A stretch of DNA of 26,204 nucleotides from a virus. The notes beneath the pieces were generated by a model. The model had not been told where the DNA came from. It did not search any database and worked only from the letters and a program-made list of their open reading frames with translations. Below, piece by piece: positions 18,264-26,204 of this stretch (positions are counted from its first letter, which is position 1; each line of letters starts with the position of its first letter). The DNA lies in IMG/VR virus record IMGVR_UViG_3300012920_009446, positions 1-26,204 of that record; one strand, given 5' to 3'. Made by a program: the position numbers and the translations under genes.

Positions 18264-19226
18264 CTATAAAGACTTATATATATCTGAATTTATTATCGAT
18301 TGCTTAAAATGTTCATAGGAAAAATGTGACTTATCTTTATTTTTCAAATATATATGTGCGCTTTTAATTAAATCTATATCTTGAAGCATTTCTTCTGCAT
18401 GAGATTTGCTTTTAAAAAGCAAGGGGTAATCTTTACCGAGATACTCTTCTGCGGCGGGATGTTTGTTAACAAGAACAGGAGTTGAGGAAGTAATGCAATC
18501 TATGATGGTATTATTTGAAGTAAAATCGTACAAATCAAGATAAAAAATATTAGAAGCTAGCAATAACTCATATTTTTCATGATTGGTTTTTCTCATTTTC
18601 TTTACCCATTTATGCCTCCATTCATCGATAGTGACATCATCCCTATTGCAACACTGCTCTAGCTGCTTTTTATTCCATTTATCAAAAGGTTTAATCGCCT
18701 TATGCCATTCATATCTAGTATTCTCGTTATAATGAGTGTTTAAATTAAAAATGGAATATATTTTCCTTAACCAGTAACCGCTTTGAATTACTTTTTTTTC
18801 ATTATTAACGTTAAATCTGTCCCAGTTAAAGTTATAGGTTATCTTCCTAGCTGGATGAATCAATGATTCAACTTTTAAGTCTTTCAGCTTAAGCTCTTTT
18901 GCATACTTTTGCCATTTCTTTTTCTCTGCCGTTGACATTAAAAATAAACCTTTGCAATTTTTCATTGAGTCCAGAAAGCCTTTTCCGCCAAACTTATACC
19001 TTTTTTCTCCGTTAAACTTATAACTATCTATTGGCGTATGAATAATTCCTATCCATGGCGACTTTATTGTATTCGCAATTCTGGGCCAGTTAGGCCTATA
19101 GTTAAACCAGTCCTCTAAAAAAGAAAAAAACAAAACCCCTTCAGGAAGATCGATTGATTCGATCGCATTTTCTGCTTTCGTCCAAGCCCCATGAACGAAT
19201 TTATCTTTACTTCTTATCAAGCTCAT
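18264..19226 (-). CDS. GT-B fold glycosyltransferase (320 aa)
   Basis: This is a soluble protein with an N-terminal segment typical of retaining GT-B enzymes (IGIIHTPIDSYKF at about 58-70), a central linker with IHPAR, and a C-terminal donor-binding region (about 235-265: FTSNNTIIDCITSSTPVLVN, then HPAAEEYLG). The last resembles the E-x7-E-type donor loop region of GT1/GT4-like families, where a glycosyl nucleotide sits between Ser/Thr/Asn-rich strands and an Ala-Glu-Glu helix. It overlaps the preceding sulfotransferase gene by 20 bases. Sugar and acceptor are unknown. Confidence 0.65.
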   Translation of the reverse strand: MSLIRSKDKFVHGAWTKAENAIESIDLPEGVLFFSFLEDWFNYRPNWPRIANTIKSPWIGIIHTPIDSYKFNGEKRYKFGGKGFLDSMKNCKGLFLMSTAEKKKWQKYAKELKLKDLKVESLIHPARKITYNFNWDRFNVNNEKKVIQSGYWLRKIYSIFNLNTHYNENTRYEWHKAIKPFDKWNKKQLEQCCNRDDVTIDEWRHKWVKKMRKTNHEKYELLLASNIFYLDLYDFTSNNTIIDCITSSTPVLVNKHPAAEEYLGKDYPLLFKSKSHAEEMLQDIDLIKSAHIYLKNKDKSHFSYEHFKQSIINSDIYKSL

Positions 19227-20010
19227 GAATTATAACCTCATTGTAGTACTGTCTAAACTTCTTTGGATTTTTAAACTTTTCGAAGTAATATTTTGTTTTA
19301 TCTTGCTTTACGAAAAAACGATTCTCTAGGCAGACCTCGCCAAGCTCGAGATCAAAAGCCCTTGAAACCGCAGACTTAATCCAGTCCACCTGCGTTGACG
19401 TTGATTCTTTTGGAACCTTATCATAATCTATTATAAGAAAAGGAATTTTATTAATCTTAACAAAGTCTTTGATTTCGTTTTTAGGCTTAATAAATTTATC
19501 CTTAAACCACTCATATCTATTTTTATCAAATTTTATCTTTATGTCAGAAGTGTCTTGATTTGACCATAAGTTATTAGTTTGAGCTTTTTCATAAGATATG
19601 TAAGAGTCTAAAACAGTTCTTTCTGTAAAGATTACCCCGTCCATAGTTTTCACTATCTTTTTAATTTGACTTTGAGTAAGATGTCCTGGAAAAACCTTAA
19701 AATAAAAGTTCTCCAAATTCATGCATGACGCATATTCATTAATAAATTCAGCAGGACATTGTTCTGAAAATATGCCTTTTTTATCCCATTCGCTTTCTTT
19801 GTTTATTTTTGCCAGATCTCTACAAAACTGAAGGGGCTTTCTATCGATGCATTTATTTTTTTTAACTATTTCTTGTGCCAACTCTTTGATTATGAAAGCT
19901 TTGTCGTGAAATATTTCATATTTTACTGAAATTCTATCACAAATATTGATTGACTCGCAAATCATATTTGAACCAGTTCTTGGAGCGCTAATTTGCACAA
20001 ATTTTTTCAT
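19207..20010 (-). CDS. Stf0-like sulfotransferase (267 aa)
   Basis: The 5'-phosphosulfate loop is ISAPRTGSNMI (residues 7-17), and the 3'-phosphate site is at about 128-143 (FTERTVLDSYISYEKA; Arg131, Ser139). The R-x-x-x-x-x-x-x-S spacing and following NNLW fit Stf0/NodH-like sulfotransferases acting on carbohydrates. The enzyme would move sulfate from PAPS to a sugar hydroxyl; PAPS must come from the host, as no PAPS synthesis gene is seen. It is the first of four sulfotransferase genes from the left and differs clearly from the others in its loop, so it is not a recent duplicate. It overlaps the upstream gene by four bases. Confidence 0.78.
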   Translation of the reverse strand: MKKFVQISAPRTGSNMICESINICDRISVKYEIFHDKAFIIKELAQEIVKKNKCIDRKPLQFCRDLAKINKESEWDKKGIFSEQCPAEFINEYASCMNLENFYFKVFPGHLTQSQIKKIVKTMDGVIFTERTVLDSYISYEKAQTNNLWSNQDTSDIKIKFDKNRYEWFKDKFIKPKNEIKDFVKINKIPFLIIDYDKVPKESTSTQVDWIKSAVSRAFDLELGEVCLENRFFVKQDKTKYYFEKFKNPKKFRQYYNEVIIHELDKK

Positions 20011-20741
20011 CGACGGAGCAAATTACGTGCTTCGAATTTCTTTAAGTTTTCACTCACAAGATCTAGATCGTACTCATGATGCTCTCTTGCGAAATAATAT
20101 TTATAACCGACTCTGTATTCGGCTTTTGTTCTTATTCCTTCTTTACGGGAATTTATTATAGGAATACAACCGCACATTAATGACTCGTAAAACCTGAAGC
20201 TCCACGGGCTATCCCCTCCAGGACATAGACAAAATTTCGCTTGACACATTTTTTTATAATAATCTTCATCAAAGTAGACCTCGGCACCAGGTATTTCAGC
20301 TTCTCTTGGAACAAAAGCTTTCTTGAAATGTTTATTGGTTTTTGATGATCTCCAAGGTTTAATTGTATAGTCAAAGCCTTTGTCCTCGGGAATGTTCTCA
20401 AATCTATCAGAGCTTGTATACATTAGCTTTGTATAAGAATCCGAAAATTCTAAAAAAGAATTTTCATTAAAATGTTGTTTTACGAAATCAAGAATCCATT
20501 TTCTGTTTCTATAGACGCGTTGGCTCCGCGACCTTCTTCCTGAATCAAAAGAGCAAACTCCAGCATTCATATTTCCTATAAATATATAATCTATAGATTT
20601 GTCTACTTCTGATTTTATTTTTTGTATTTTCTCAAAATATGACCGCGGCCACACGGTTCTTCTCTTAAGCATAAATTTTAATTTATATGACTTACTGGAT
20701 TCGCTTATTGCTTGGATTGCAAGATCTCTTAACTGTTTCAT
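20007..20741 (-). CDS. Exostosin/GT47-like glycosyltransferase (244 aa)
   Basis: Residues 161-196 carry the exostosin-family core: YYKKMCQAKFCLCPGGDSPW then FYESLMCGCIPII, the same order of F-C-L-x-P-x-G and E-x-L-x-x-G-C-I-P seen in eukaryotic EXT proteins and plant GT47 enzymes. Upstream residues (about 50-130) are basic and may bind the acceptor. It overlaps the neighbouring sulfotransferase genes closely. An ATG at 20739-20741 is chosen; a TTG at 20765 would create a TTGA overlap with the upstream stop and add eight hydrophobic residues, so that start is also credible. The donor sugar is unknown. Confidence 0.72.
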   Translation of the reverse strand: MKQLRDLAIQAISESSKSYKLKFMLKRRTVWPRSYFEKIQKIKSEVDKSIDYIFIGNMNAGVCSFDSGRRSRSQRVYRNRKWILDFVKQHFNENSFLEFSDSYTKLMYTSSDRFENIPEDKGFDYTIKPWRSSKTNKHFKKAFVPREAEIPGAEVYFDEDYYKKMCQAKFCLCPGGDSPWSFRFYESLMCGCIPIINSRKEGIRTKAEYRVGYKYYFAREHHEYDLDLVSENLKKFEARNLLRR

Positions 20742-20761
20742 ATAATATATAATATACAATA

Positions 20762-21415
20762 TCAAGCAAAATCATAATTAAAATATTCCAAATCTTTTTT
20801 ATTTTTTGTTTCTACTATTTTTATAGATTTATCGTTGTAAATTTCTCTTAAATTTAACTCCATAAGAGGAGACCTATTCTTGTGGGGAGTTTTCGGGAAC
20901 TCCTTTAAGCCTATTTTTTTGTAAATTTTTAATAAATCAGAATTTATATCTTCGAAGCGGCCTATAAAATTCAATGGCTTACCATCGCTGTCAAAAAAAG
21001 TATCGTGCATTGTTAGCGCTCTTGCATACCACTTTGAGTTTATATATTGATTAAAGTTCATTTTTTGCAAACTTTTAAATCTTTCTTTGCTGGTCCATTT
21101 CCAATTTTTTGTAGGCTTTGTCCGCTTGAAATACCTAAAGGCTGAAAATGCAAGATAAAAAGGGTTTCGCGCAAAACCAAAGGTGAAGTAGTTTTCGCGA
21201 CTAATGATTGGCACCATTTCCTTTATCTCAGCAATGCCTGCATGTTTTTTTTGATAAAAAATAGAAGGCTTATAAACAGAAAGGTTTTCTCGAGAATAGT
21301 CTCCTGCAATAATATCTCCACCCTCACAAACACTTGACAGACAAGAGCCTATGCTTGAGCCTGCGGTTTTTGGATGATGAATAAAAACAAATTTTTTACT
21401 ATGAGATATTATCAT
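20762..21415 (-). CDS. Family 2 sulfotransferase (217 aa)
   Basis: The PAPS 5' loop is FVFIHHPKTAGSSI (9-22), and the 3'-phosphate site is FARNPFYLAFSAFRYF (about 81-96; Arg83, Ser91), matching the Sulfotransfer_2 pattern of animal carbohydrate sulfotransferases. A later FIGRFEDI segment is also standard. I chose the ATG at 21413-21415, which forms an ATGA overlap with the upstream gene and places the loop a normal distance from the N-terminus; a longer start at 21481 would bury 22 extra residues in the previous gene. It would sulfate a sugar made by neighbouring transferases. Confidence 0.8.
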   Translation of the reverse strand: MIISHSKKFVFIHHPKTAGSSIGSCLSSVCEGGDIIAGDYSRENLSVYKPSIFYQKKHAGIAEIKEMVPIISRENYFTFGFARNPFYLAFSAFRYFKRTKPTKNWKWTSKERFKSLQKMNFNQYINSKWYARALTMHDTFFDSDGKPLNFIGRFEDINSDLLKIYKKIGLKEFPKTPHKNRSPLMELNLREIYNDKSIKIVETKNKKDLEYFNYDFA

Positions 21416-22233
21416 TTCTGCCTTAATTTTTTTAAACTGCATCGAAAATGAAAAAACATAATCTCTGGAAACGCGGACCATTTAAAACTTTTAGCTTTTC
21501 TTTTTCCTCCGCATAAAATTTTAGGAGTATGCGCAGTCTTTAGCTCTATACATGTTGGGTATTTTATCTGAGCTAACCATTTCGCGTGAGAATCCAATGT
21601 TTCTCGGTGCCTTTTGAGCACAGGCTTTTGAGGGTCAATTAATTTTAAATAGTTGCCATCTAAGTCTCTAGGCCCTTCAGTGATTTGGCAAAACTTAAAT
21701 AGCCTAAATCCAGGATTTTTTTCTATAAACTCTTTTAAGTTTTTTGAGCTTCTTAGCACAATAAACTCATCAGGATCAATAAAAAGCGTCCAATCTGGAT
21801 TGAATTTTACGAGAAAATTCTCAAAGCCTTTTTTTTGAGATGTAGGGTATCCAAATTCATGATGCCTTCCTTTTACCCAAGGTACAACGGTAACTTCTGG
21901 ATATTTTTTCTCAATTTCCGAAAGCTTAAGTAAAATTTCTTCGTCCGTAAATTGGGGGTGGTGGTCGGCATACGGTTTTTTCTCCCAAACATATTTTTTA
22001 AAATTTGGATCTACTTCTCTAAGGAATTTTAATCTCTTTCGTTGGTCATTTTTCTTCTTGTATTTTCCCTTAAGGCCAGCTCTCCAGTGAGCATTTTTGT
22101 CGTGCTTTGGTCTTAATCCATTATTATACAAAACAATATTATCCACACCTAATTTTAAATGATAATCTATCCAGTACTCAAGATAAGGAACCTCTAACCT
22201 CGGAAGTATAATAGAATATATCGATACCTTCAT
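21412..22233 (-). CDS. GT92-like glycosyltransferase (273 aa)
   Basis: The N-terminal block (EVPYLEYWIDYHLKLGVDNI, then LYNNG) is characteristic of GT92 and Glyco_tranf_2_4 proteins, and WTLFIDPDEFIVL (about 148-160) contains the metal-binding DPDE motif expected of a GT-A enzyme. Basic residues are frequent around 60-75 and near the C-terminus. GT92 members include beta-galactosyltransferases of animals, plants and bacteria. It overlaps both neighbours by four bases. Linkage and sugar are not predicted. Confidence 0.75.
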   Translation of the reverse strand: MKVSIYSIILPRLEVPYLEYWIDYHLKLGVDNIVLYNNGLRPKHDKNAHWRAGLKGKYKKKNDQRKRLKFLREVDPNFKKYVWEKKPYADHHPQFTDEEILLKLSEIEKKYPEVTVVPWVKGRHHEFGYPTSQKKGFENFLVKFNPDWTLFIDPDEFIVLRSSKNLKEFIEKNPGFRLFKFCQITEGPRDLDGNYLKLIDPQKPVLKRHRETLDSHAKWLAQIKYPTCIELKTAHTPKILCGGKRKAKSFKWSAFPEIMFFHFRCSLKKLRQK

Positions 22234-22883
22234 CCTGGCCTACTGTATTTAAATATATCAATATCTTCTTCGTATTTTTTTTCTACAATTCGCATAAGCT
22301 CTTCGGTGTAATCGTTCATCCAGTGTGTTCTTGGTCCAAATTGCCTATTTACGTGTCTTAGTCTTTTTTTTGCATTTTTAAATCTATCATGCATTGACAG
22401 CATCTTTTCGTAATCTTCTTGAAGGTTTTCAAATCTACCAACAAAGTCTGCGCCTTGGCAGTAAAAAGCCTGAGTCCATCTTGTCTTACTATACCATAGC
22501 GCACTAGGATCATCGAGTCGGTGAACAAATTCTGAAAAATTTAAATCTGCATAATCTTTAGTCCAATATTCTCCAGATAATTTTGTAAACCTATACTGAG
22601 AGTGAACCCTTAGCCACGGATTTCTTACAAAAGAAAATTTAAAAAAATTTTTATACCGTTCTGGATTTACTGCGTCTTTTATATAAGGCAAAGGGATATG
22701 ATTTAGGTCAAACTGATGCTTATTTTGAATCCAATTAATGTTTATCCAACCTTGCTTTCCTCTTATTGTCGCCGCCCACTTCCTAAAGCGTTTGGTGTGA
22801 TCTCCATGAATTCCATACATTATTGAGCTTGATCCAGTCTTAGGAACGCGCGCAAAAATACATTTTTTTTTCCAGTTAATCAT
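22230..22883 (-). CDS. Family 2 sulfotransferase (217 aa)
   Basis: The 5' loop is CIFARVPKTGSSSI (8-21) and the 3'-phosphate site is FKFSFVRNPWLRVHS (81-95; Arg87, Ser95), followed by QYRF. A downstream DFVGRFENLQEDY segment is typical of family 2. The protein is basic and soluble with no membrane anchor, unlike the Golgi enzymes of animals. It overlaps the upstream sulfotransferase gene by eight bases and the GT92-like gene by four. The amino-acid sequence is quite different from the next sulfotransferase, so distinct acceptor positions are plausible. Confidence 0.8.
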   Translation of the reverse strand: MINWKKKCIFARVPKTGSSSIMYGIHGDHTKRFRKWAATIRGKQGWININWIQNKHQFDLNHIPLPYIKDAVNPERYKNFFKFSFVRNPWLRVHSQYRFTKLSGEYWTKDYADLNFSEFVHRLDDPSALWYSKTRWTQAFYCQGADFVGRFENLQEDYEKMLSMHDRFKNAKKRLRHVNRQFGPRTHWMNDYTEELMRIVEKKYEEDIDIFKYSRPG

Positions 22884-23703
22884 TGTTAAAATCTTGGCTT
22901 AAAAATTCTGAGAAAAGTATATAGTCATCTTCATACATATGATACACTTTTTCTTCTTGCCTAGATGTTAACTTAACGGAATTAGTTTCTTTTGTTCTGT
23001 TTCTTTTGTGGGGGATGGTATCGCATGGAATATTTATTTTATTCATAATGATTTCTGTTTGATTTTTAAAATCATGAAAATCTGCAATAAAATCAATCGG
23101 CGTCAAATCCTTACTCCATGAACAATAATCTTTTGGCTCTACATTGTTAACACAAAAAGCTCTTGCATTCAAACCTTTAACTTTATCATTGGCACATATG
23201 TCAAATTTTTGACCTTGAGACAAAATAAAATAATGCTGCGGCAAAAGATGGTAACCTATGTTTCCGCGATCCCCGAATGGGTACCTGATTTGCCTCCGCT
23301 TCCAGCATTTTTTTTCAACAAGCTTTTTTAGATTTTTTTCTTTTACCATTCTATGGTTTTCCAATATTGTATCGTTTTCTATCAATCTATAGAATCTTTC
23401 TGGACGACTACGAATAAAAACTTCAGTTTCGGCAATAAATTGGTCTATATTTTTTTTGCTTGCAAAATGCTTCCATGCCGATATAAATCTATCTATTGGG
23501 TCCCTAGTATATGCGAACTTAAAATAATCAGGGAATTCTTTACAAAGATCAAACAAACCTTTATTTCTTATATTTTTCGTGCGCTTGGCCCATTCACCTC
23601 CAGTGGGAGGCACGGCACTGTAAGGTCTTAGTATCGATTCAATCGAGGTGCCACCGCATTTAGGAATATGAATAAAAATAAATTTATGCGTGTGACTTAT
23701 CAT
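22876..23703 (-). CDS. Family 2 sulfotransferase (275 aa)
   Basis: The 5' loop is FIFIHIPKCGGTSI (8-21), and the 3' site is FKFAYTRDPIDRFISAWKHF (61-80; Arg67, Ser75), with RDP instead of RNP. It is the longest of the three family 2 proteins and has an insertion of about 60 residues with several Cys (GNIGYHLLPQHYFI near 148-161 is shared with heparan 2-O-type enzymes). It overlaps the GT2/GT7-like gene by 20 bases. The acceptor is unknown; the PAPS site is clear. Confidence 0.8.
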   Translation of the reverse strand: MISHTHKFIFIHIPKCGGTSIESILRPYSAVPPTGGEWAKRTKNIRNKGLFDLCKEFPDYFKFAYTRDPIDRFISAWKHFASKKNIDQFIAETEVFIRSRPERFYRLIENDTILENHRMVKEKNLKKLVEKKCWKRRQIRYPFGDRGNIGYHLLPQHYFILSQGQKFDICANDKVKGLNARAFCVNNVEPKDYCSWSKDLTPIDFIADFHDFKNQTEIIMNKINIPCDTIPHKRNRTKETNSVKLTSRQEEKVYHMYEDDYILFSEFLSQDFNND

Positions 23704-24343
23704 TTCCTGGCGACTTAAACTGACTCTCGCATAATTTAATATTCCTCAATTTAGACGCTTCCCTGTCTTTGTTTTTATGATTTTCGACAGAAAGGTCTCG
23801 TGAGTGAGGAATGTGAAACAAAAATTTTTTAGGACTTTTAATAATAAATTCAGATAAGCCTGATTTTGTTAGACGCGAATAAAGATCTACGTCTTCGTAA
23901 CCCCAATCTTCTAAATCCTCGTTATATCCTCCGATTTTTTCAAAATCTGCCTTATTAAAGATGCAGAATCCAGTTAAATGACTGCTGACATTCGAGGAAT
24001 GGGCGAAAGATTTTGGCTGTAAAGTTTTTCTTAAATGTCTTTTTAGGATTTTTTTATTAGTAAGCACATAATCTATATCTATTTTTATAACATTACTATG
24101 TGTGCAATTCCTTACTGCTAAGTTAAATGACCTTGATCTAGAGAAGTATTTTTCCTTGTCAACGCGAATTATTTTTATTTTTTTATTATTAAAATTTTCT
24201 TTTCTTAAAAGTTCTTCAACAGGTCGCCTAGAGTTCCAGTCGACCAAAACGAACTCGTGGCAACCCTCCCATTTAAGCCATGACCGCAAGCATCTTATAA
24301 CCCTATCATTACGACTCATTACCGAAGTAGCGATAGAATTCAT
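23684..24343 (-). CDS. GT2/GT7-like glycosyltransferase with WGYEDVD motif (219 aa)
   Basis: A GT-A domain begins near the N-terminus (MNSIATSVMSRNDRVIRCL), has FSRSRSFNLAVRN (68-79), a DxD site IDIDY (Asp89, Asp91), and the donor/acceptor segment GFCIFNKADFEKIGGYNEDL then WGYEDVDLYSRL (147-158). The WGxEDxD pattern is a hallmark of beta-1,4-galactosyltransferase 7 and chondroitin-polymerase type enzymes. It starts two bases after the dioxygenase stop, making it the second gene of the operon. It is probably an early transferase in chain assembly. The exact sugar cannot be told. Confidence 0.78.
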   Translation of the reverse strand: MNSIATSVMSRNDRVIRCLRSWLKWEGCHEFVLVDWNSRRPVEELLRKENFNNKKIKIIRVDKEKYFSRSRSFNLAVRNCTHSNVIKIDIDYVLTNKKILKRHLRKTLQPKSFAHSSNVSSHLTGFCIFNKADFEKIGGYNEDLEDWGYEDVDLYSRLTKSGLSEFIIKSPKKFLFHIPHSRDLSVENHKNKDREASKLRNIKLCESQFKSPGNDKSHA

Positions 24344-24345
24344 TC

Positions 24346-25152
24346 TTAAATTGTCTCTCTCCAGCTTAATGATTGTAGATTTTCGTCAGTTTCTGCAACA
24401 AACGCAGGAGATAGTAATTTTTTTTCAGTTTGTGATTTTGCGTATTTGCAGTAAGGTTCTACCGCTTCCTTCCAAGGATGAAAGCAACAAAAACCTGAAG
24501 TATACATAAGGTATAAAGAAATTCTCTCCCCAGAATGCGCAGAAGATCCATGCACCAAAGAGTCTGCAAAAATTAACAGATCTCCCGTTTTTCCCTGAGG
24601 AATGACTACTTGCTTAAGATATACTTTCTCTGGCGGGCAGTTTCTTTTGCATTTATTTCGATTACCCCCTTTATGAGTTCCTGGAATGGCTTGAGCCCCT
24701 CCTATTGTTGGGCCGAAGTCTGTCAACGCGAGACTTACGTTTAATCTAAATGTTCTGACAAGATTTTTTTCTAAAGGCATGCCGCCTCTATAGAAATTCA
24801 TACCAAGGTTTGAATTGACCCCTCCGTGCATATTTTTTGTAGCAAGCTTTCCTGGAACAGCATTGCCCGAAATTTTGTAGCCAAATGCATGATCAAATCT
24901 CATATGGGGGCCTAACATCCTTTTGCAAGCTTTTATTATATTTTCATTTGAAATTAAATTCACTAGACTTTCTCCAAGAAATTCGCATGAAAATTTTGCC
25001 TCTTGTCCGCCCTTCCATTTTTTTGAAGAGTTTTGTTTTAAATTATCTTTTGTCTTATTGACAATTTCGTCAACCAAGCTGTCATCTATGGCATTTCTTA
25101 AAACTGTAAAACCATTTTTCTCTATTTGTTTTAAATTAGACATTAATTCCAT
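24346..25152 (-). CDS. PhyH-family Fe(II)/2-oxoglutarate oxygenase with HGG motif (268 aa)
   Basis: The core reads MHGGVNS (His109-Gly110-Gly111), LALTDFGPTIGGAQAIPGTH (141-160), FADSLVHGSSAH (distal His201) and GERISLYL (Arg210, 2OG-binding). The expected HxD has Gly111 in place of Asp, so the iron would have a two-His triad, as in SyrB2- or WelO5-type halogenases; a similar HGG version also seems to occur in some bacterial PhyH-like proteins that are not proven halogenases. It heads the glycan operon. It could modify a sugar or a sugar acceptor. ATG at 25152 is taken; an ATG at 25143 is three codons downstream. Confidence 0.72.
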   Translation of the reverse strand: MELMSNLKQIEKNGFTVLRNAIDDSLVDEIVNKTKDNLKQNSSKKWKGGQEAKFSCEFLGESLVNLISNENIIKACKRMLGPHMRFDHAFGYKISGNAVPGKLATKNMHGGVNSNLGMNFYRGGMPLEKNLVRTFRLNVSLALTDFGPTIGGAQAIPGTHKGGNRNKCKRNCPPEKVYLKQVVIPQGKTGDLLIFADSLVHGSSAHSGERISLYLMYTSGFCCFHPWKEAVEPYCKYAKSQTEKKLLSPAFVAETDENLQSLSWRETI

Positions 25153-25266
25153 GTTTATTATATTGTAAAATTATTTTTTTGCGACACAATTTCCCAAATG
25201 AGACAGTATAGAGCCATGTTGACATTGCTAGGCCAATAGAATCGGCTTAGATGCTTTAAAAATAAA

Positions 25267-25283
25267 TTGGCACGTATATTGCA
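25267..25283 (+). promoter_or_regulatory. Sigma54-type -24/-12 promoter candidate for Hsp20
   Basis: The plus strand reads TTGGCACGTATATTGCA, a near-perfect match to the sigma54 consensus (TGGCACG, four bases, TTGCA), with the GG and GC dinucleotides twelve bases apart. The predicted start is near 25294, which would place the Hsp20 ATG (25295-25297) at the very 5' end of the RNA. I found no clear upstream activator site in the 140-base spacer. The rest of the spacer (25153-25266) shows no other convincing element. Confidence 0.5.
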
Positions 25284-25294
25284 AATATGAATAT

Positions 25295-25681
25295 ATGAAA
25301 AATTCACTTAACAATTATTATGGTTTCGGAAGCTCCTTGCTGTCCGATTTTTTTAATCTTGACTCTAACTCAATTGTGGATTCCGCAATGAGTTCCTATA
25401 AGTTTAAGACAGATGTAGAGGAAAAAGATGGGGAGTATGTAATTACTGCTGCTGTTCCTGGATTAAGCAAGAAAGATATCAAAGTCGAAGTACTACATGA
25501 TAGAGTAATTATAGAAGGATCAAAAAAGATTAACGATAGAATGAATTCAGAGATTAAAAGAGAATTCGCGGTATATAGTGATGTTGACCCTGACTCTGCA
25601 TCTGCTAAGGTTCAAGATGGTATATTAACTGTCACTGTCCCAAAGAAAGCAAAGAAAAGGAAATTACTAGAAATCAAGTAA
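25295..25681 (+). CDS. Small heat-shock protein (Hsp20/alpha-crystallin, 128 aa)
   Basis: Residues about 34-118 form an alpha-crystallin domain: YKFKTDVEEKDGEYVI, AVPGLSKKDIKVEV, and DGILTVTVP (108-116, containing the signature G-I-L). The N-terminal arm is short and aromatic (YYGFGSSLLSDFF), and the C-terminus ends in LLEIK, similar to the I-x-I anchor. It is an ATP-independent holdase that prevents protein aggregation. Marine phages often carry Hsp20, perhaps for virion assembly. It is divergent from the glycan operon and lacks a Shine-Dalgarno; the start codon lies just behind a sigma54-type element. Confidence 0.93.
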   Translation: MKNSLNNYYGFGSSLLSDFFNLDSNSIVDSAMSSYKFKTDVEEKDGEYVITAAVPGLSKKDIKVEVLHDRVIIEGSKKINDRMNSEIKREFAVYSDVDPDSASAKVQDGILTVTVPKKAKKRKLLEIK

Positions 25682-25747
25682 GGTCCGATTTTTTTTTCGT
25701 TCAAGCAATTATTATAAATTAAAAAGTCTATTTTATATTGAAGAAAA

Positions 25748-25806
25748 CCACCCCCGCCCGATTTTGACAGGCTTACGCTTTGCGTTTTTTGAAAAAAGGG
25801 GGGTGG
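25748..25806. repeat. GC-rich inverted repeat with internal hairpins, possible terminator
   Basis: An eight-base inverted repeat (CCACCCCC at 25748-25755 and GGGGGTGG at 25799-25806) encloses 43 bases. Inside are ACGCTTTGCGT followed by TTTTT (25775-25790) and TTTTTTGAAAAAA (25785-25797). The inner ACGC hairpin with T-tract could terminate the Hsp20 message. The outer arms may pair over it. The arms stand out sharply against the AT-rich surroundings. Confidence 0.45.
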
Positions 25807-25810
25807 GGAG

Positions 25811-26122
25811 TTAAGAAACTTGGACTATGGTTTTTGGTTCGTGAGTCTTTACGAACCAAGCGAACGGGTCAACAGGTTGACCGTCAAGGTGGGGTTCAAA
25901 ATTGACTTGATGAAAATTCAAGCCCGTTATGCCGTTGACCCTTTCCCGAGTCGTTGGGGTGTTCCACCCTGCAAGAGTAGCCATCACGACACCGCTTGCG
26001 TCACGAGTTACAATCTTGTTGCCATGTAGCCAAACGCTTTGTCCGTCTGTGTGAGTGTTGCCAATGGTCTTGGCTTTTCGCTGCTCGAATGCTTCTTTTA
26101 TCTGTTGCGTTACTTTTCTCAT
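25811..26122 (-). CDS. Conserved-looking phage hypothetical protein (103 aa)
   Basis: The product has 103 residues starting MRKVTQQIKEAFEQRKAKT. The middle reads GNTHTDGQSVWLHGNKI and AGWNTPTTRERVNGI, a pattern I associate with small hypothetical proteins in many tailed phages, function unknown. The ATG at 26120-26122 is selected because GGAG (26132-26135) lies nine bases before it; a start at 26155 would overlap the previous gene and lose this signal. It follows the upstream partial gene by four bases, so the two are probably co-transcribed. Base composition is more GC-rich than the glycan operon. Confidence 0.75.
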   Translation of the reverse strand: MRKVTQQIKEAFEQRKAKTIGNTHTDGQSVWLHGNKIVTRDASGVVMATLAGWNTPTTRERVNGITGLNFHQVNFEPHLDGQPVDPFAWFVKTHEPKTIVQVS

Positions 26123-26126
26123 AAAA

Positions 26127-26204
26127 TTATTCTCCAAAAATTTCTGCCATTTCACCGCTTATGGCGTTCATGTCAACGAGGTTTTCGTCATTGTCAAAAT
26201 CCTC
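26127..26204 (-). CDS. Hypothetical acidic protein, 3' end only
   Basis: An open minus-strand frame enters from the right edge and ends at TAA (26127-26129). Only 25 residues are visible; they read EDFDNDENLVDMN and end in GEMAEIFGE, giving a strongly acidic tail. The downstream gene's Shine-Dalgarno lies within its last codons, supporting translational coupling. No family can be named from so little. Confidence 0.6.
   Translation of the reverse strand, partial: EDFDNDENLVDMNAISGEMAEIFGE
26132..26135 (-). promoter_or_regulatory. Shine-Dalgarno that sets the 103-aa gene start
   Basis: GGAG on the minus strand sits nine bases before the ATG at 26122, inside the last codons of the preceding gene. 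It decides between this start and an upstream one at 26155. Confidence 0.7.

Follow-up and report, generated by a model that had tools for sequence, protein, structure and literature searches.

The hsp20 gene of this virus is preceded by what we read as a real sigma-54 promoter, worked by a host activator of the bEBP type at two upstream dyads, probably the one that the host uses for its own hsp20 operon, and yielding a leaderless message for the viral chaperone. We give this reading as a whole a probability of about 0.7. Sigma-54 control is well supported because the element is conserved in both related phages available, because rpoN is present in the presumed host group, because the hsp20 promoters of that group are of the same type, and because pairs of candidate activator sites lie upstream. 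The usual view is that phages rely on the primary sigma factor of their host or on one of their own. A sigma-54 promoter is silent until its activator fires, and would thus provide a phage gene with a genuine off state, tied to the alarm of the host.

Results

A sigma-54 element abuts the hsp20 start codon

The window, that is the whole stretch of DNA analysed, comprises the 26,204 bases of a virus record. It was compared with two phages, G001 (locus L001) and G002 (locus L002), and the features discussed below are collected in Table 1. In all three phages hsp20 lies on the strand opposite to its neighbours, and hence needs a promoter of its own.

Table 1. Features at and around hsp20 (positions are those of the window).
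Feature	Position	Strand	Basis
Distal activator site (UAS) candidate, GCGACACAATTTCCC	25181..25195		7.3 bits with the host-promoter matrix; centre at -80 from the T at -26
Proximal activator site (UAS) candidate, GAGCCATGTTGACAT	25211..25225		9.0 bits with the host-promoter matrix; centre at -50 from the T at -26
Sigma-54 -24/-12 promoter element, TTGGCACGTATATTGCA	25267..25283	+	sequence read; conserved in L001 and L002
Predicted transcription start (+1)	25294 +/- 2 nt	+	predicted from geometry, C25282 taken as -12
hsp20 coding sequence, 128 aa	25295..25681	+	ORF list; Pfam HSP20 PF00011, 1.5e-15
37 nt after the hsp20 stop, GGTCCGATTTTTTTTTCG...	25682..25718	+	identical in the window, G001 and G002
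GC-rich stem-loop between hsp20 and the convergent gene 25811-26155	25750..25811		fold, -24.4 kcal/mol

The sequence-only reading had reported a near-perfect sigma-54 element abutting the Hsp20 start, and this was confirmed. TTGGCACGTATATTGCA carries GG at 25269-25270 and GC at 25281-25282, that is GG-N10-GC, and it scores 19.4 bits with a sigma-54 matrix. The predicted +1 precedes the hsp20 ATG by one base, which places the ATG at +2. When both strands of the window were searched with TGGCACNNNNNTTGCW, a single match without mismatch was found, for about 0.01 exact matches expected by composition arithmetic. Weak look-alikes are common, as 21 matches were obtained when up to 2 mismatches were allowed, against a shuffle mean of 9.8. 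Two more sites of 18.5 bits were present in G001, the 116-kb relative, both across predicted ORFs, and the exact 17-mer TTGGCACGTATATTGCA was also found in two viral contigs (L004 and L005) that the hsp20 search had not retrieved. The motif match by itself is not decisive. We place the element above chance because it is kept before hsp20 in three phages, and because hsp20 promoters of the presumed hosts match it.

The element and its distance to the ATG are conserved in related phages

Two viral contigs encode close relatives of the Hsp20 protein, with 97% amino acid identity for G001 and 71% for G002. Together with the window they form one phage group, as judged from synteny and from terminases 86-90% identical to that of the window. 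The element of G001 is identical to TTGGCACGTATATTGCA, and that of G002, TTGGCATGAATACTGCA, differs by three changes, which fall at two C/T positions and in the spacer. Sigma-54 promoters vary at those two C/T positions and in the spacer. In all three phages 11 nt separate the element from the ATG, with different letters in G002. Conservation upstream of hsp20 in related phages had been proposed as the check on the element, and it held in two relatives out of two, with the ATG at equal distance. Nucleotide homology with the window begins at 25263 for G001 and at 25267 for G002; further upstream the sequences are unrelated and gave no alignment.

At 18264-25152 the window carries a block with sulfotransferase, glycosyltransferase and phytanoyl-CoA dioxygenase-like genes (among those scanned against Pfam), which is diverged or rearranged among the three related phages. 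In G001, the regions L060 8357-11757 and L061 13163-18201 contain DUF1501 and DUF1549/1553 genes, and also encode DNA polymerase III alpha and an AAA protein of the Clp type.

The hosts are likely Verrucomicrobia-type bacteria with rpoN

G001 encodes a DUF1501 protein and a DUF1549/1553 protein, which belong to families typical of Planctomycetes and Verrucomicrobia. The best matches to the DUF1501 protein were found in Verrucomicrobiales and Akkermansiaceae MAGs, with 42-50% identity, and one Planctomycetaceae-labelled MAG matched it at 49%. The second of these, a PSCyt2-type protein considered as another host marker, failed to separate Verrucomicrobiota from Planctomycetota: its best match, at 400 bits, was in a Planctomycetaceae-labelled MAG (five such genomes searched), and the best among 145 Verrucomicrobiota genomes reached 353 bits. 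For the phage Hsp20 itself, the best cellular match scored 56 bits among 387 Verrucomicrobiota genomes and 46 bits among 149 genomes of Planctomycetota. Peptide patterns retrieved no relatives of the phage hsp20 from genome contigs, whereas a profile search does find distant ones. On the DUF1501 matches, the hosts are likely Verrucomicrobia-type bacteria.

rpoN was found in 19 of the 20 genomes searched from this group, to which the actual phage host would belong. The set was drawn from 21 of the 22 Verrucomicrobia-labelled loci among 41 DUF1501 loci, L088 being left out as it comes from the same isolate as L086. The search for a phage rpoN covered the window record.

hsp20 genes of the presumed host group have sigma-54 sites and paired upstream dyads

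In the family of G024, an Akkermansiaceae-labelled MAG genome, an Hsp20 match was present in 65 genomes out of 74. From the match list we hand-picked 40 loci, mostly adjacent pairs, together with 20 control loci of a second class. Scored with the sigma-54 matrix, a site of at least 11 bits precedes hsp20 in 35 of the 40 loci, versus none of the 20 controls; under a different anchoring, one control (L179) had a site. Upstream, 34 loci out of 36 carried at least two dyads that agree with GnGnCAnnnTGnCnC at 7 or more of its 8 fixed positions; counted from the T at -26, most have their centres near -86 and -130. This amounts to 73 sites, versus a mean of 2.4 and a maximum of 7 in shuffles. For this count, four of the 40 loci (L184, L200, L201 and L203) had been dropped owing to the lack of a site, truncation or membership of another class, and the two kept loci without two dyads were L188 and L149, the latter with 52 nt of upstream DNA only.

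The distance between the site and the first in-frame ATG is 27-95 nt in most host hsp20 loci. It is shorter in L146 (3 nt) and L187 (24 nt), which have an MKLVRY start further down. None of the 74 genomes of the host family contained the element and the ATGAANAA start as a single pattern, which is expected since host leaders are longer and the sites vary.

The survey was widened to 30 loci taken from the best Verrucomicrobiota-wide matches, 9 of which had a sigma-54 site of at least 11 bits together with both dyads at 5 bits or more. Among 30 Planctomycetota hsp20 loci, a sigma-54 site was present in 11, two strong GnGnCAnnnTGnCnC-type dyads in none, and a sigma-54 site with a weaker dyad pair in one. 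In two Planctomycetota loci, L258 and L263, a related yet different dyad, CTGCCAnnnTGGCAG, was seen by eye upstream of the sigma-54 site. If our reading of the phage promoter is right, it also exposes a host regulon, in which Verrucomicrobia hsp20 operons would depend on sigma-54 and on a precise dyad pair for the activator.

Dyad pairs are found upstream of the element in the three phages

Upstream of the element, a matrix built from the host sites alone detected the two candidates of Table 1 in the window, GTGACGGTTTGGCGC (-48) and GCGTCGCAATGTGTC (-71) in G001, and TAGGCAATTTGTCTC (-69) and GGGTCAATTAGTCGT (-38) in G002. The dyad consensus, for its part, was written after host and phage sequences had been viewed together. 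The score of the pair was matched in 1, 0 and 4 of 2,000 shuffles for the window, G001 and G002, respectively. It was reached by 13, 0 and 13 of 21,188 other segments of the three phages, which overlap one another, and by 3 of 7,734, 0 of 7,734 and 0 of 3,601 GC-matched segments; when the promoters themselves were kept in, these counts became 27, 9 and 45 of 21,298. Phage dyads are weaker than those of the host, one or two of the eight fixed bases being off, and they are placed nearer to the element (-38/-69, -48/-71 and -50/-80, versus about -86/-130), with a spacing that varies among phages. Their assignment as activator sites is a statistical one.

It may be asked whether the sigma-54 promoter is real and the dyads are there by chance, the promoter being opened by another host activator, or by one acting from solution. 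Degenerate dyads, whose spacing differs from one phage to the other, would fit such a situation, as would the absence of an activator gene near the host operons: a bEBP adjoining the host operon was considered and set aside, as in 5 host loci no bEBP motif was found up to about 6 kb away from hsp20. Chance, however, does not readily account for a pair that each of the three phages has ahead of the element, in DNA that is otherwise unrelated. Such pairs are moreover rare in the same phage genomes, and none accompanies the 11 other sigma-54-like sites of at least 12 bits that the three phages contain. We therefore hold chance dyads to be unlikely, and keep the reading in which the dyads bind an activator.

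Proposed control of hsp20

In that preferred reading, hsp20 would be a stand-alone transcription unit, read by the host RNA polymerase with sigma-54 at the element. A host AAA+ activator (bEBP) would bind the two dyads of Table 1 and open the promoter, and this activator would most likely be the driver of the host's own hsp20 operon. Proteotoxic or other infection stress would switch on the viral chaperone, from a message starting about one base before the ATG and translated in a leaderless or near-leaderless fashion. If this is right, the phage would read a stress signal of its host through enhancer sites, and the virus may let the host stress alarm turn on a viral chaperone.

Host nitrogen or stress activators had been suggested from the sequence. 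Nothing was found in support of nitrogen control, which we dropped, and the evidence favours instead the activator by which the host controls its own hsp20 operon. The dyad resembles a ZraR site. A ZraR-type activator stays a guess, as the literature excerpts held no site sequence to compare. The phage seems not to bring an activator of its own, since no GAFTGA-type motif was present in the predicted ORFs of at least 50 aa of the three phages, which may be fragments. One candidate, the Clp-type AAA protein of G001, reached the Pfam cut-off for Sigma54_activat with 41.5 bits, but over that stretch its score as AAA_2 was far higher, at 198 bits. The Pfam scan covered 30 proteins, among about 370 to 400 ORFs of at least 50 aa in the three phages.

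The start of translation

The absence of a Shine-Dalgarno sequence before the hsp20 ATG of the window, noted in the sequence-only reading, was borne out, but turned out to be ordinary in these phages. Among predicted genes of at least 100 aa, a Shine-Dalgarno precedes 8 of 31 in the window, 20 of 119 in G001 and 8 of 69 in G002, the corresponding numbers for shuffled leaders being 3.1, 14.2 and 4.1. Since this motif precedes few of the phage genes, its absence before hsp20 is weak evidence for a leaderless mRNA. The hsp20 message is nevertheless predicted to be leaderless or near-leaderless, and the prediction is a purely geometrical one, with the ATG at +2 and the same spacing in the three phages. 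In two hsp20 loci of the host family, L160 and L193, only 14-15 nt separate the sigma-54 site from the ATG, and near-leaderless sigma-54 messages may exist in bacteria too.

Translation might alternatively start at the TTG at 25337, which has a conserved GGAAG before it and would leave an ordinary leader of about 43 nt; the three phages hardly differ in the sequence concerned, TTCGGAAGCTCYTTGCT. We find this improbable, because the frame is open from the ATG, with an N-terminus partly conserved between the window and G002 (NS, NY, GFGSSLL), and because the spacing between the ATG and the element is constant in the phages. A start at the ATG, abutting the predicted +1, is preferred.

Other readings of the promoter region

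Further upstream, a 10/12 match to a sigma-70 promoter ends at 25164, and ATAAATT at 25262-25268 resembles by eye a T4-type late box, so that an ordinary sigma-70 promoter or a late promoter of the phage could drive hsp20, the sigma-54-like match being a coincidence. T4 late boxes have been searched for in marine T4-like phages, according to the excerpted text of PMC3037559. Sigma-70 promoter-like matches were near the shuffle level in the region 24300-26204 (7, versus a mean of 4.2), and ATAAATA occurred at chance in the window (13, versus 12.6), with none near hsp20. A T4-type late promoter (TATAAATA-type box) was rejected, as the 6/7 look-alike ATAAATT is not retained in G001 or G002. Since the upstream DNA is unconserved whereas the sigma-54 element is conserved, we regard a promoter of either kind as quite unlikely, and retain sigma-54.

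The segment 25263-25803 of the window, an hsp20 cassette with the promoter core, forms a homology island with differing flanks, and its left boundary coincides with the promoter. Common descent of a mobile hsp20 cassette, with no selection acting on the promoter, would explain such an island of hsp20 and its near flanks in otherwise different DNA, the 94% identity between the window and G001 within it and the identical 37 nt of 3' flank in all three phages, but it is very improbable given that G002, with a coding region at 71% amino acid identity, has changed the element at degenerate positions only, with the spacing fixed, and that the activator-like pairs lie outside the island.

The 37 nt in question are unchanged although the coding region of G002 has diverged, and they showed no clear structure on folding. 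Downstream of them, the stem-loop at 25750-25811 is a possible shared terminator of hsp20 and of the convergent gene; its folding energy corresponds to a z of -1.84, a weak signal, with 13 of 200 shuffles equally stable.

Origin of the gene and of its control

Other viral hsp20 genes belong to the same protein family and differ from that of the window in what precedes them. A sigma-54 site was found in none of 28 such loci, and a GGAG-containing run was seen by eye just before the start in 27 of them. When 109 Hsp20 proteins were placed in a tree, those of the three phages grouped with 7 of these other viral ones (98/92), and not with the sigma-54-driven class of the host; branches are long in this tree and the alignment is short. 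The capture of a whole sigma-54-driven hsp20 gene from the host was rejected on this placement of the phage proteins among viral Hsp20s, a placement that carries the caveat of the long branches. As the phage proteins group with viral Hsp20s, the control was probably acquired separately and, on present evidence, a viral gene seems to be under host-like control. We tentatively suggest, at somewhat less than even odds, that a viral hsp20 independently gained the host module (sigma-54 core and paired enhancers), with a leader of about one base, which would be a case of convergence and not of gene capture.

Small heat shock genes under sigma-54 have been described in bacteria. ibpB of E. coli is transcribed by sigma-54 (excerpt of PMC4370416), and sigma-54 control of IbpA/COG0071 small Hsps has been predicted in Planctomycetota and Bacteroidota (excerpt of PMC12316311). 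In Chlamydia, 10 of 13 sigma-54 targets rise upon heat shock (excerpt of PMC8762339). The promoter of the window resembles those of E. coli ibpB and of the IbpA/COG0071 genes in having a -24/-12 element before hsp20 and an activator-dependent logic; it differs in being phage-borne, in having dyads like those of the presumed host, and in a predicted start that abuts the ATG. The verrucomicrobial hsp20 operons (L144-L163 and most of L185-L202) likewise combine a sigma-54 site with paired GnGnCAnnnTGnCnC dyads, but these dyads are stronger and mostly at -86/-130, and the distance from site to ATG is longer in most.

The cyanophage genes that have NtcA or Pho boxes are not known to involve an alternative sigma factor with enhancer sites. 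They are otherwise comparable, as phage genes placed under a stress regulator of the host; the excerpted text of PMC3037559 counts hsp20 among the core genes of cyanophages and describes host NtcA boxes in these phages. The link between a prophage and a host sigma-54 operon found in the excerpt of PMC9879122 is a different matter. Among the papers listed by mostly multi-term queries of the open-licence literature, there was no report of phage sigma-54 promoters or of verrucomicrobial sigma-54 small Hsps.

Control of this kind had been called uncommon for a phage gene. This is so for hsp20, as judged from the 28 other viral loci, but does not extend to another phage, G004 (L026, L241; IMGVR_UViG_3300030101_001011), which has four strong sigma-54-like sites. 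They lie at 44723, 47165, 48580 and 48942, all on the - strand, with scores of 17-19 bits. The four sites span 4.2 kb, and after each come AT-rich sequence, similar in all four cases, and a small ORF. Given this arrangement, several G004 genes may be under sigma-54 as a set.
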